Assembly (NCBI GenBank): GCA_027014155.1
Contig: JALWEG010000002.1
Location: forward strand, 1 to 58,575
DNA from: Aquificaceae bacterium
GTDB lineage: Bacteria > Aquificota > Aquificia > Aquificales > Aquificaceae
Direction: 5' to 3'
Length of the DNA: 58,575 nucleotides
Shown: in pieces, positions 53,378 through 58,575 of the stretch
How positions within the stretch are numbered: the first letter of the stretch is position 1
How the letters are laid out: each line of letters begins with the position of its first letter
Notes under the pieces: generated by a model
What the model was told of the DNA's origin: nothing
Databases searched by the model: none
The model's input: only the letters and a program-made list of their open reading frames with translations
Made by a program: the position numbers and the translations under genes

Positions 53378-54013
53378 GTGAGAGGAGAACTACTAAGTCC
53401 CAAAGAGGCAGGAAAACTTCTGGGAGTATCTACAAGAACTATTCAAAGATGGGACAAGCAAGGACTTATCAAGGTAATCAGAACACCAAAGGGAAGAAGA
53501 AGAGTGCCTATGTCCGAAGTTAAAAGATTGCTCAATCAAATGACCAACGACAGAAGAGCCGTAATCTACGCAAGAGTAAGCTCCCAAAAACAAGATAAAG
53601 ACGGCAACCTTGAAAGACAAATAGATAGATTGCTCAAATGGTCTAAGGAAAATAACTACGAGGTTGTAAAGGTTTTCAAAGATACGGCAAGCGGTATAAA
53701 TGACAAACGCAAAGGCTTTTGGAAGATGATGGAATTTATCAAAGAGAACAACATACCCTACTTGATAGTGGAGTTCCACGACAGACTAACAAGGTTCGGA
53801 CTTGAATACGTAAAAGCACTACTCAAAGAATATGACACTCAGCTGATAACCGTTGAAAGTAAAATCAGCAAAGACAAAATGCATGAACTTGTAGAGGATT
53901 TGATTACGATAATAACTTCCTTCACCGCAAGAACTTACGGAGTGAGGTCTCAGAAGTTCAAGAAGGTAAAGGAGATACTTCAAGATGAAGCTACACAAAA
54001 CGCTACTGCTTAA
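53378..54013 (+). CDS. tnpA: IS607-family serine recombinase (transposase TnpA)
   Basis: A 211-residue protein with a MerR-like helix-turn-helix (LSPKEAGKLLGVSTRTIQRWDKQGLI) and a resolvase-type catalytic domain with YARVSSQKQ (Ser 68/69), DTASGINDKRKGF and EFHDRLTRFG. It cuts and joins by the serine mechanism. Starts at GTG 53378; a better ribosome site was not found. Open from end to end, so probably active. Confidence 0.93.
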   Translation: MRGELLSPKEAGKLLGVSTRTIQRWDKQGLIKVIRTPKGRRRVPMSEVKRLLNQMTNDRRAVIYARVSSQKQDKDGNLERQIDRLLKWSKENNYEVVKVFKDTASGINDKRKGFWKMMEFIKENNIPYLIVEFHDRLTRFGLEYVKALLKEYDTQLITVESKISKDKMHELVEDLITIITSFTARTYGVRSQKFKKVKEILQDEATQNATA

Positions 54014-55376
54014 GGTTCAAAGTCCTAACGTAGGAAAGAAGGAAAGGCTTGAAAAAACTATCAAGCTCTACTCTGAAGTGCTAAAGTTCTACCTTGAAGT
54101 AATACCTAAGCTGGGTATGTATCACATAGCAAGTATGAGTAATAAGTCAGCTCTCTCTTTCCTTGAGCTTAACACGGTTCCGACCAAAGCTCACCCTAAT
54201 CCGAAATATCCAATCTTCTCAGGTGTTCAAACAAATATAAGAAGAAGTGCTATAAACAAGGCTGTAGGAATGGTAAAGAGTTATCTGTCCAATTTACTCA
54301 GGTGGCACAGGGAAGGAAAAGAGCTTGAACACTCCAAACCCTCTTATCCGAATCCTAAAAATTTCTCCCTTACTTATTACTCCACCGATGTGGAACTTAA
54401 GGACTTACTCCTAAGAAGAGAGAACGAATCTTTAGCCTTTGTAAGGCTGAAGGTAATAAACGACCGAGGAAATTATGAGTTTGTTAACTATCCCGTAAAG
54501 CCTTACAAGAGGTTCTACGAAAAGCTCTCCGGATTGCAAGCGGAAGGTTGGAAATTGAAAAACACCGCTACTCTGATAAAGAAGGATAAAGAGTTCTACA
54601 TGGCCGTTGTCCTTGAGAAGGTAGTAAAGAGAAAAAGGTTCAGGAATCCCGGATACGTGATAAACGTTGACCTTAACGTCCAAAGGAATTTGGCGTGTGT
54701 AGGGATATATGAGTTAGATTGGGAAGATAAGGTAAGCAAGTTTTACGGGATAAAGTTCATAAGTGGAAAGATTATAAAGCTTGTTCGCAAGAGAGATTAC
54801 TTGCTCGGAGAAATAAGGAGGAAACAGGCTCTAACGGGGAGGAGTCCCCAGGAAGGGGATAACGGTAAATTGTGGAGGAAGGTTAAGAACCTAAATAAGG
54901 ATATAGCTCTCAAGGTAGCGAAGGAGATAGACAAAGTGGCTCTTGACATGGCAAAGAAGGGAGATGTTGTAGTAGTCTTTGAAAAGCTCAAGGGATTAAG
55001 GGGGAAAAGAGGCAAGAGCAGGAAATTAAACAGAAATATAAACTATTGGATGAGGAAGAGCATTCAGGACAGGGTAGAGTATCTTTCTTTTGAGCACGGA
55101 TACGAGGTAAACTTCGTGTATCCGCACTACACCTCAAGAAGATGCTCTATGTGTGGGTCAAAAGGAGAGAGGTTCTCTCCTAAAGGCTCTAAGGCACTTT
55201 TTGGGTGTAAGGCATGCGGATATGTGGTAAATGCAGACGTTAATGCAGTCTTCAATCAACATTTTGCTTACCTGTCCTATCTCCTACATGGAGGTAGGAA
55301 AGCCCGACCTGTGGTTCGGGTGGGGATTTCGCCAAAAAGGCGGAGTCTCCAAAGGTCAACAGTTGTCCGTGTTTAG
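53985..55376 (+). CDS. tnpB: RNA-guided nuclease-like TnpB
   Basis: A 463-residue TnpB. The RuvC triad is present: D229 (INVDLNV), E333 (VVFEKLKG) and D418 (NADVNA), with a four-cysteine zinc finger (CSMCGSKG...CKACGY) between the last two. The 35-residue C-terminal tail beyond D418 is Arg/Val-rich and overlaps the candidate omegaRNA. GGAGATAC before the ATG is its ribosome site. In studied members TnpB cuts DNA matching the guide at the element's right flank. All catalytic residues look intact. Confidence 0.93.
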   Translation: MKLHKTLLLKVQSPNVGKKERLEKTIKLYSEVLKFYLEVIPKLGMYHIASMSNKSALSFLELNTVPTKAHPNPKYPIFSGVQTNIRRSAINKAVGMVKSYLSNLLRWHREGKELEHSKPSYPNPKNFSLTYYSTDVELKDLLLRRENESLAFVRLKVINDRGNYEFVNYPVKPYKRFYEKLSGLQAEGWKLKNTATLIKKDKEFYMAVVLEKVVKRKRFRNPGYVINVDLNVQRNLACVGIYELDWEDKVSKFYGIKFISGKIIKLVRKRDYLLGEIRRKQALTGRSPQEGDNGKLWRKVKNLNKDIALKVAKEIDKVALDMAKKGDVVVVFEKLKGLRGKRGKSRKLNRNINYWMRKSIQDRVEYLSFEHGYEVNFVYPHYTSRRCSMCGSKGERFSPKGSKALFGCKACGYVVNADVNAVFNQHFAYLSYLLHGGRKARPVVRVGISPKRRSLQRSTVVRV

Positions 55377-55417
55377 TGATGTTTTATGGCAACTGCTGAC
55401 ACCACACGGGGGGTCAA
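55280..55417 (+). ncRNA. Candidate omegaRNA scaffold at the tnpB 3' end
   Basis: Consecutive hairpins cover the end of tnpB: TCCTAC/GTAGGA (55282-55299), CCCGA/TCGGG (55303-55320), CGCC-AAAAA-GGCG (55330-55342). Then GTCAACAGTTGTC (55355-55367) pairs with GGCAACTGCTGAC (55388-55400) with one mismatch, and its loop CGTGT (55368-55372) pairs with ACACG (55404-55408), an H-type pseudoknot. Position and shape match omegaRNAs of TnpB. The guide would start just past 55417. Confidence 0.6.
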
Positions 55418-55436
55418 ACCGGATTAATATATTATC

Positions 55437-55529
55437 GGCTGGGAAAATAGCGCCTGCCGGACTCATTCCCAGCCTAAGTAAGGCGCTATACAAGTAGCCC
55501 GGCACCTCGGACTTTGCAAGGGTCTGAGG
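55437..55529 (+). promoter_or_regulatory. Multi-pseudoknot RNA-like leader of lysA
   Basis: Four complementary pairs: GGCTGGGAA/TTCCCAGCC (55437-55445 with 55466-55474), ATAGCGCC/GGCGCTAT (55447-55454 with 55482-55489), TGCCGG/CCGGCA (55455-55460 with 55499-55504) and CCTCGGAC/GTCTGAGG (55505-55512 with 55522-55529, one G-U). The first three cross each other (order a b c a' b' c'). AAGG before the lysA ATG is 16 bases after the last stem. This is either a folded RNA or a set of alternative pairings. No known riboswitch class was recognised. Confidence 0.6.
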
Positions 55530-55545
55530 TAATCAAGGTCGGTAA

Positions 55546-56805
55546 ATGCTCAAGGAATTTGAGTTAAAGGAGTTCAACTCTTACATAGACATCAGGAACG
55601 GTATCCTTCACCTTGAGGACGTGTCTTTGAAAGAGCTGGCTCGGGAGTTGGGAACGCCCCTATACGTATATAGCGCGAGCTTTATAAGGGACAAAGTTAG
55701 AGCCTACAGGGAAGCCTTTGAGGACGCCCTGATATGCTATGCGGTCAAGGCCAACTTCAATCCCGAGGTTATAAAGGTAGCTCTCTCGGAAGGCGCGGGA
55801 GCGGACATAGTATCCGGCGGGGAGCTTTACGCTGCACTGAAGGCGGGGGTTCCGGCGGACAGGATAGTTTATGCCGGCGTGGGGAAGACCGTTAAAGAGT
55901 TGGAATACGCGATAGATAAAGAAATCCTTATGTTCAACGTAGAGTCTAAGATGGAGCTGGAGGTCTTGGACCAGATAGCGGGCAGTCTGGGTAAGAAGGC
56001 GAGGGTTGCCGTGCGGGTAAACCCCGACGTGAACCCGAAGACTCACCCTTACATATCCACGGGAATGAAAAAGAGCAAGTTCGGCGTGGACATAGATACC
56101 GCCTTTGAGGAGTATATCTACGCCTCCCGTTTGCCCAACCTTGAAGTGGTGGGTATCCACTGCCATATAGGCTCTCAACTGCTGGACATATCCCCTTATA
56201 GGGAAGCCGTAGAGAAGGTCGTGAACCTGTATCACAGGCTAAGGAAGGAAGGGATAGAGATAAGGTATCTGGACATAGGTGGCGGTTTGGGTATAAAGTA
56301 CAGACCCGAAGACAGGGAGCCGACGCCTCACCAGTTGGCCGAGCTTTTGCTACCCGTATTGGAGGGCGTAGAGGCCAAGTTGATACTTGAACCGGGTAGG
56401 TCTATAACGGGAAACGCGGGCATACTGATAACGCAGGTTCAGTTCTTGAAAGACAAGGGTATAAAGCATTTCATAATCGTTGATGCGGGCATGAACGACC
56501 TGGTCAGGCCTGCCATATACGACGCCTTCCATTACGTCCTACCGGTGGAAAGCAAGGGCAGAGAGCACATAATAGCGGACGTGGTGGGACCCATCTGTGA
56601 GACGGGAGACTTCCTCGCCAAGGACAGGCGGATAGAGAATCTTGATAGAGGGGATTTTCTGGCGGTTCTCTCGGCCGGAGCTTACGGCTTTGCCATGTCC
56701 TCCCACTACAACGTGCGCCCGAGGGCCGCAGAGGTTCTCGTGGATAGGGGAAGCTACCGCGTGATAAGGGAGAGGGAAGACTACGACTACATTCTCGGGC
56801 CGTGA
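55546..56805 (+). CDS. lysA: Diaminopimelate decarboxylase
   Basis: A 419-residue PLP enzyme for the last step of lysine synthesis. Features: TPLYVYSASFIRDKVRAY, CYAVKANFNPEVIK (Lys binding PLP), GIHCHIGSQLLD, YLDIGGGLGIKY, EPGRSITGNAGI and ICETGDFLAKDR. Length is standard. The ATG at 55546 follows AAGGTCGGTAA. It overlaps folK by four bases (GTGA). The leader upstream is strongly structured. Confidence 0.97.
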   Translation: MLKEFELKEFNSYIDIRNGILHLEDVSLKELARELGTPLYVYSASFIRDKVRAYREAFEDALICYAVKANFNPEVIKVALSEGAGADIVSGGELYAALKAGVPADRIVYAGVGKTVKELEYAIDKEILMFNVESKMELEVLDQIAGSLGKKARVAVRVNPDVNPKTHPYISTGMKKSKFGVDIDTAFEEYIYASRLPNLEVVGIHCHIGSQLLDISPYREAVEKVVNLYHRLRKEGIEIRYLDIGGGLGIKYRPEDREPTPHQLAELLLPVLEGVEAKLILEPGRSITGNAGILITQVQFLKDKGIKHFIIVDAGMNDLVRPAIYDAFHYVLPVESKGREHIIADVVGPICETGDFLAKDRRIENLDRGDFLAVLSAGAYGFAMSSHYNVRPRAAEVLVDRGSYRVIREREDYDYILGP

Positions 56806-58256: not shown

Positions 58257-58299
58257 CGTATCTGTGAACCTTTCCGCCTTTACGGAAGGAGCTTCCGAT

Positions 58300-58575
58300 A
58301 GAGATTACTCCCACCCGGAAGACCCGCATGGGGATTCCTGCTTCAACGAGAGATGGCTAACACCCTCCTCTGAGAGTATCCCGCCAGAGCTCTCTCCACA
58401 GGCGTTAGTCCGGGTTGCTCCAACCCTACCACCCGTCAGGTGGGTGAACCCTAAATCCTTTCGCTTCTAACCAACTACCAAACCTTTTACCACCAAGGTG
58501 GAGGCTGGCATCACACCCCTTTAGCTCTCCACCTGCATAAATTATTTTAGTTCTTCACCCCACTACGTGCAACAC
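58300..58575 (-). mobile_element. Right end of an IS200/IS605-type tnpB element (partial)
   Basis: On the minus strand the block GTTGAAGCAGGAATCCCC (58347-58330) is followed by a hairpin, CCCATGCGG/CCGGGTGGG (58332-58324 with 58318-58310, one mismatch), as at the right end and omegaRNA of many IS200/IS605 tnpB elements. Ahead of it a 30-codon frame ends LTPVERALAGYSQRRVLAISR-stop (58435-58343), like a TnpB C-terminal tail, but it is closed upstream by a stop. The rest lies beyond the window or is degenerate. No other gene in this stretch. Confidence 0.5.

Follow-up and report, generated by a model that had tools for sequence, protein, structure and literature searches.

The DNA upstream of lysA in this Aquificaceae genome encodes one copy of a knotted RNA that is apparently a strongly conserved, Aquificota-specific and undescribed family, copies of which are found both at the 3′ end of tnpB genes and alone in front of host genes. 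It is very probable that the latter are real, selected structured leaders related to a TnpB element. That they have been co-opted for translation initiation is a reading to which we would assign a probability of about 0.5; promotion of translation and contact with the ribosome are suggested here by sequence comparison. Somewhat more tentatively, a piece of TnpB scaffold may have become a bacterial leader resembling an internal ribosome entry site (IRES), which would recruit or position the ribosome, replace a strong Shine–Dalgarno sequence in dozens of housekeeping genes, and have been seeded by an IS607 element that targets Shine–Dalgarno sequences.

The copy lies within the window, the 58,575-base stretch analyzed here, which is contig 2 of the 1.86 Mb source genome, and it leads a reading frame that we take to be lysA on the strength of the preliminary description and general knowledge (Table 1). 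That description had drawn stems of 9, 8, and 6 bp, interleaved as a b c a′ b′ c′, at 55437-55529, and these are present exactly as drawn, with the 5′ strands of both b and c lying in the 20-nt loop of helix a. The fourth stem that it listed does exist as a hairpin, with 11 pairs (counting G-U) in place of the 8 originally given. The impression that so much complementarity exceeds chance was also borne out: none of 3000 dinucleotide-preserving shuffles reproduced a crossing triple of 9/8/6 Watson–Crick pairs, with looser triples arising in 5 of 3000 shuffles at 6/6/6 and in 217 of 3000 at 5/5/5. The nested fold of the same segment has a z of −2.65, settles in a different minimum, and cannot draw the crossing triple. 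The lysA copy is intact, with six pairs in helix c and one extra base in the linker; the outer three pairs of its helix b are not conserved as pairs across the RNA family. For the crossing helices, the comparative data given below are far stronger than any argument from shuffling or chance.

Table 1. Features of the lysA leader copy and its surroundings (positions in the window)
Feature	Positions	Strand	Remarks
IS607-type element upstream of the lysA leader	53378 to ~55405	+	Pfam, NCBIfam; given from the recombinase start; right end by comparison with L008
Serine recombinase with MerR-type HTH	53378-54013	+	Pfam, NCBIfam
Zinc-finger TnpB	53985-55376	+	Pfam, NCBIfam
Stretch between IS right end and core	55406-55436	+	TATATT box just before core base 1
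Helix a, lysA leader	55437-55445/55466-55474	+	GGCTGGGAA/TTCCCAGCC, 9 bp
Helix b, lysA leader	55447-55454/55482-55489	+	ATAGCGCC/GGCGCTAT, 8 bp
Helix c, lysA leader	55455-55460/55499-55504	+	TGCCGG/CCGGCA, 6 bp; crosses a and b
3′ hairpin, lysA leader	55505-55515/55519-55529	+	11 pairs counting G-U
Tail from hairpin to start codon, lysA leader	55530-55545	+	~16 nt, weak AAGGT
Presumed lysA (diaminopimelate decarboxylase) reading frame	55546-56805	+	gene led by the copy at 55437-55529

A DNA search of the source genome gave six further close copies, whose matches all begin exactly at the position corresponding to 55437. With a covariance model built on 20 copies, 14-15 copies were counted in the source genome, 35 in G051, and 19 in G018, and at least one copy was found in 45 of the 64 genomes of the bacterial family and in 77 of 136 Aquificota genomes. 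Searched over 84,980 species, a strict pattern matched 53 contigs, all labeled Aquificota, Aquificales, Aquificaceae, or Aquifex; it found no match in other phyla, and its absence from viral contigs led us to reject a viral origin of the RNA. Rfam 15 returned no family over 55437-55529 at gathering threshold, and scans at lax and gathering thresholds of the window and of related copies recovered only tRNA, SRP RNA, and chance-level matches, the RAGATH-18 type giving no match in the scans of related copies. The accessible part of a published survey of Aquificales noncoding RNAs likewise describes no such family (PMC4227106).

All three crossing helices are retained in 92 copies, in which the paired strands take 67 sequence variants for helix a, 2 for helix b, and 34 for helix c; helix b was located in these copies through its complementarity, and no copy failed. 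Its family core is 5 bp, GCGCC/GGCGC or CCGCC/GGCGG, one pair being flipped between C-G and G-C in about half of the copies. Among 84 distinct copies, 96.4% of paired cells can pair, compared with 75.8% in shuffled alignments and 32-49% in slid ones; two-sided changes number 459 against 122 after shuffling, covariation is 0.532 against 0.152, and 0 of 500 shuffles reached any pairing or covariation measure of the real alignment. By helix, the paired cells amount to 99.2% for a, 100% for b, 96.8% for c, and 91.1% for the hairpin. The alignment had been guided by helix a and the hairpin only, and b and c reach these values nonetheless. Two-sided changes occur at 9 of 9 family pairs in helix a, at 5 of 8 in helix c, and at all 9 pairs of the 3′ hairpin, which is variable in sequence and conserved in pairing. 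The linkers are conserved as well: AAT[A/G] between a and b and, between b′ and c′, a stretch of about 9-10 nt following the pattern RNTANAAATA. The compact pseudoknotted cis-leader that had been proposed is thus upheld by strong compensatory change (the 459 two-sided changes), and a switch between mutually exclusive folds, raised alongside it, is not needed, as the three crossing stems coexist in every copy.

The suggestion that lysine or diaminopimelate might be the ligand did not survive the comparison. A riboswitch of lysA responsive to either compound has only the position ahead of lysA in its favor and can practically be dismissed: homologous copies precede very different genes (hfq, ilvC, rpoA, infC, acpP, and others), and no other lysA leader inspected, that of the congener G063 among them, has the element, lysA homologs being present in 62 of the 64 genomes of the bacterial family. 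The initial judgment that the segment does not match the lysine riboswitch agrees with the Rfam result, in which that riboswitch gave no match at gathering threshold.

A subset of copies, referred to here as long copies, ties the RNA to TnpB. In these the loop of an upstream hairpin, CCTGG or CTTGG, can pair with a CCAGG strand directly after the 3′ hairpin. Many are preceded by more than 1 kb of conserved sequence, which is a tnpB gene (matching TIGR01765 and TIGR01766, with guided_TnpB below its cut-off), and the tnpB frame continues through the core and terminates in GGTAA; in one locus (L269) an IS607-type recombinase, recognized from its sequence, is also present. Because IS607 guide RNAs carry a pseudoknot between the loop of stem-loop 1 and nucleotides next to the guide (PMC10711439), the long copies fit a TnpB guide-RNA scaffold, and they combine a tnpB gene with RuvC motifs, a guide-flanking pseudoknot, and insertion at AGGAG. 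In their tnpB 3′ end, pseudoknot, and AGGAG(G) insertion they resemble the described IS607 TnpB guide RNA (PMC10711439, PMC11061315), with the triple-pseudoknot core as an extra relative to core-less relatives; copies standing alone differ in having neither stem-loop 1 nor the CCAGG strand and in acting as gene leaders. The described RAGATH-18 type is unlike the long copies, whose scaffold overlaps coding sequence. Core-less related TnpBs have a 6-bp hairpin at the place of the core (e.g., GGCAAGTAGCTTGCC in L318), so that the core can be seen as an elaborated stem-loop, gained or lost in the lineage, and we infer that descent ran from TnpB scaffold to leader. Of 92 cores, 72 are open in the tnpB frame, against 27-29 in the other frames, which looks like kinship with tnpB and not like coding; a translated leader peptide was rejected, as that frame is closed by stops shortly before the core in many solo copies.

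The long copies also suggest how such RNAs could have come to lie before start codons. The target-adjacent motif of IS607 TnpB is AGGAG or GAGGG (PMC11061315). AGGAGG, or a close variant of it, adjoins the left end of seven elements (L263, L264, L265, L267, L269, L274, and L281); the CCAGG right end of such elements mostly falls shortly ahead of a start codon, at a GG a few bases before it. Judged from these flanks, TIGR01765-type TnpB elements insert into Shine–Dalgarno sites, as do some core-less relatives, and the view that insertion ahead of start codons is confined to core-bearing TnpBs is weakened by core-less copies at such positions. After the AGGAGG flank, TIGR01765-type elements start with a conserved (T)TAACAACAGTTGA-like sequence.

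Solo copies, counted as those that lack the CCTGG hairpin or the CCAGG strand, make up 77 of the 108 copies with a scored downstream gene, a few of them borderline. The lysA copy is one of these: it is neither preceded by a CCTGG hairpin nor followed, past its 3′ hairpin, by a CCAGG strand, and no matching tnpB ends in it, all of which sets it apart from a functional IS607 guide RNA. The possibility, entertained at the outset, that the segment belongs to a mobile element and occurs elsewhere was therefore half right, in that the core is shared with the 3′ end of a TnpB element, but the lysA copy itself is a solo leader. Across copies, the distance from hairpin to start codon has a median of 15 nt (quartiles 13-16, n = 89). 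Of the 77 solo copies, 19 have a TATAAT-like box 3-10 nt ahead of core base 1, where 4.7 would be expected, and 37 begin no more than 45 nt after the end of the upstream frame; boxes at the right distance could be a simpler reason than self-cleavage for the constant 5′ boundary. The genes led by copies (among them lysA, ilvC, hfq, infC, rpsK, rpoA, acpP, and tsf) have roles in translation, cell division, amino acids, or energy, or unknown roles, and share no pathway. Highly expressed genes are included (rpsK, rpoA, infC, and tsf), and in G051 solo copies sit even between rpsM and rpsK and ahead of rpoA.

Two further observations concern individual groups of copies. About eleven solo copies of G051 (L089-L105) have near-identical cores, even in the unpaired loops, and 3′ hairpins whose sequences are unrelated and yet each paired; this would need homogenization of the cores or fast turnover of the hairpins. 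In L004, one solo and one long copy (777-875 and 1501-1605) precede neighboring, sequence-related small genes about 700 bases apart.

The surroundings of the lysA copy include a mobile element of their own. About 30 nt before the lysA core stands the right end of an IS607-type element that looks complete and has a recombinase and a zinc-finger TnpB; this TnpB is of a different type, and the element is not the source of the core. A copy of its right end was found in L008, and the source genome has more than 20 TnpB matches. As for the promoter, from which the insertion had been suggested to separate the leader, the TATATT box stands about 4-5 nt ahead of core base 1, and the corresponding −35 region would be expected at the right boundary of the IS; no full sigma-70 promoter match was found ahead of the core. 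At the right edge of the window (58290-58575, minus strand), a repeat-like sequence, GTTGAAGCAGGAATCCCC..., appears to resemble the 3′ end of another TnpB-type element.

A comparison of sister species places filled sites beside empty ones. G053, the sister of G051, has 0 copies against 35, and its orthologous sites are empty, in the order stop codon, AGGAGG, start codon. With ortholog-guided starts (first-ATG calls gave wrong starts), a strong Shine–Dalgarno sequence precedes 15 of 17 empty-site genes and 1 of 17 filled-site genes among the 17 ortholog pairs, and the median duplex energies are −11.4 and −7.2 kcal/mol, respectively (Wilcoxon p = 3e-4). Within G051, 3 of 35 element genes have a strong Shine–Dalgarno, compared with 40% of 92 others (Fisher p = 5e-4), although the duplex energies of element and other genes do not differ significantly (p = 0.17). 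The lysA tail has no strong Shine–Dalgarno either, with a duplex energy of −7.0 kcal/mol. These genes thus present the arrangement expected of an IRES-like leader, a conserved tertiary-type fold beside the start codon with no strong Shine–Dalgarno. A weak AGG or AAGG survives in many element tails, so that initiation need not be Shine–Dalgarno-free, and both the fixed spacing and the missing Shine–Dalgarno also follow from the insertion habit and so are not independent proof of function.

Because spacing and the missing Shine–Dalgarno follow from insertion, only structural selection and gene recurrence argue independently for a function. G051 has no TnpB of the core-bearing type; the idea that this 35-copy genome is free of TnpB was abandoned, as five TnpBs of another type are present. 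G018, with 19 copies, has only two TnpB fragments, and the solo copies of both genomes keep every helix. There are 8 cases in which one gene family bears solo copies in at least two genera, against 1.4 expected (2000 simulations drawing from 1500 families, maximum 6), and 0 such cases for long copies. The eight recurrent families, whose names we assume from sequence recognition, are hfq with its paralog, infC, acpP, ftsH, ppa, rpmF, ilvC, and a GYD-like gene. The recurrence speaks against debris and in favor of a role for the host at certain genes; if some copies were inherited in common by several genera, the count would likewise go up, and the copies would still have been maintained. It is accordingly improbable that the solo copies are selfish debris, the leftover right ends of TnpB elements, or trans-acting TnpB guide RNAs with no host function. 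Such readings would draw on the core and hairpin common to tnpB 3′ ends, on the five other-type TnpBs in G051, and on an insertion habit that accounts for position. However, neither strand of the pseudoknot that is reportedly required in an IS607 guide RNA is present in solo copies, the helices are all intact in a 19-copy genome with TnpB fragments only, the same genes are involved repeatedly, and some core types, such as AATG before a GCGCC helix b, are solo-specific and unseen in long copies.

Structural selection and recurrence alone would be compatible with initiation, regulation, or mRNA protection alike. The recurrence of genes fits a regulator too: the knot might bind a trans-acting protein or a common metabolite and adjust a broad growth regulon, with the weak Shine–Dalgarno as part of the switch. 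The recurrent targets (hfq and its paralog, infC, acpP, ftsH, ppa, rpmF, and ilvC), the location at the start codon, and strongly conserved unpaired bases (AAAU and RNUANAAAUA), which could form a binding site, are all in keeping with this. We nonetheless regard it as unlikely, if far from negligible, given genes that span unrelated pathways, sets that differ sharply between sister species (35 and 0), copies within ribosomal-protein operons in one genome only, and a lysA copy with no evident expression platform, whether terminator or sequestered Shine–Dalgarno. A hyperstable knot at the 5′ end of an mRNA, or of a processed operon segment, might instead block 5′-to-3′ decay in a thermophile. 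Its compactness and ring-like topology would suit that role, as would a core base 1 that is the likely transcript start or follows closely after a stop codon; the constant distance to the start codon and the missing strong Shine–Dalgarno would then be unexplained except through the insertion habit, and we consider protection quite improbable.

For co-option in translation initiation, the following course can be envisaged. The solo RNA, a triple pseudoknot of about 68 nt plus hairpin, is kin to the region from stem-loop 2 to 3 of an IS607-type TnpB scaffold, and the TnpB element would have seeded sites by inserting in Shine–Dalgarno sequences. In the solo copies, stem-loop 1 and the CCAGG strand are absent, and core and hairpin are kept under selection as a 5′ leader, placed at the likely transcript start or just past the upstream stop codon. 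The rigid knot and hairpin may then cover the mRNA up to about −15 and assist the 30S subunit in engaging the start codon, together substituting for the missing strong Shine–Dalgarno.

Known systems offer partial parallels. The intergenic-region IRES of Dicistroviridae also places a triple pseudoknot directly upstream of the start site (PMC9458429), but it is viral, differs in topology, sequence, and host, and uses no initiator tRNA; the analogy is one of possible working, and no relationship is implied. Riboswitches and ribosomal-protein leaders are likewise conserved pseudoknotted 5′ leaders beside a start codon, whereas the knotted RNA has no common pathway, is patchy between sister species, and is shared with a mobile element. 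TldR-like exapted TnpB derivatives similarly represent a TnpB-system component reused by host or phage (PMC13418256); there, however, protein and guide act on DNA, and here the RNA scaffold alone would be reused in cis on mRNA. On TnpB in connection with Shine–Dalgarno sequences or leader exaptation, we found nothing relevant in the open literature.

The family described above is apparently a new structured RNA, whose fully crossing topology is unusual and whose covariation is very strong. It shows a mobile element that enters ribosome-binding sites, and a knotted RNA common to a guide scaffold and to host leaders. The filled and empty sites of sister species make an initiation role directly testable, and if the knot does initiate translation, bacterial cells would have a counterpart of their own to the structured ribosome entry sites of viruses.
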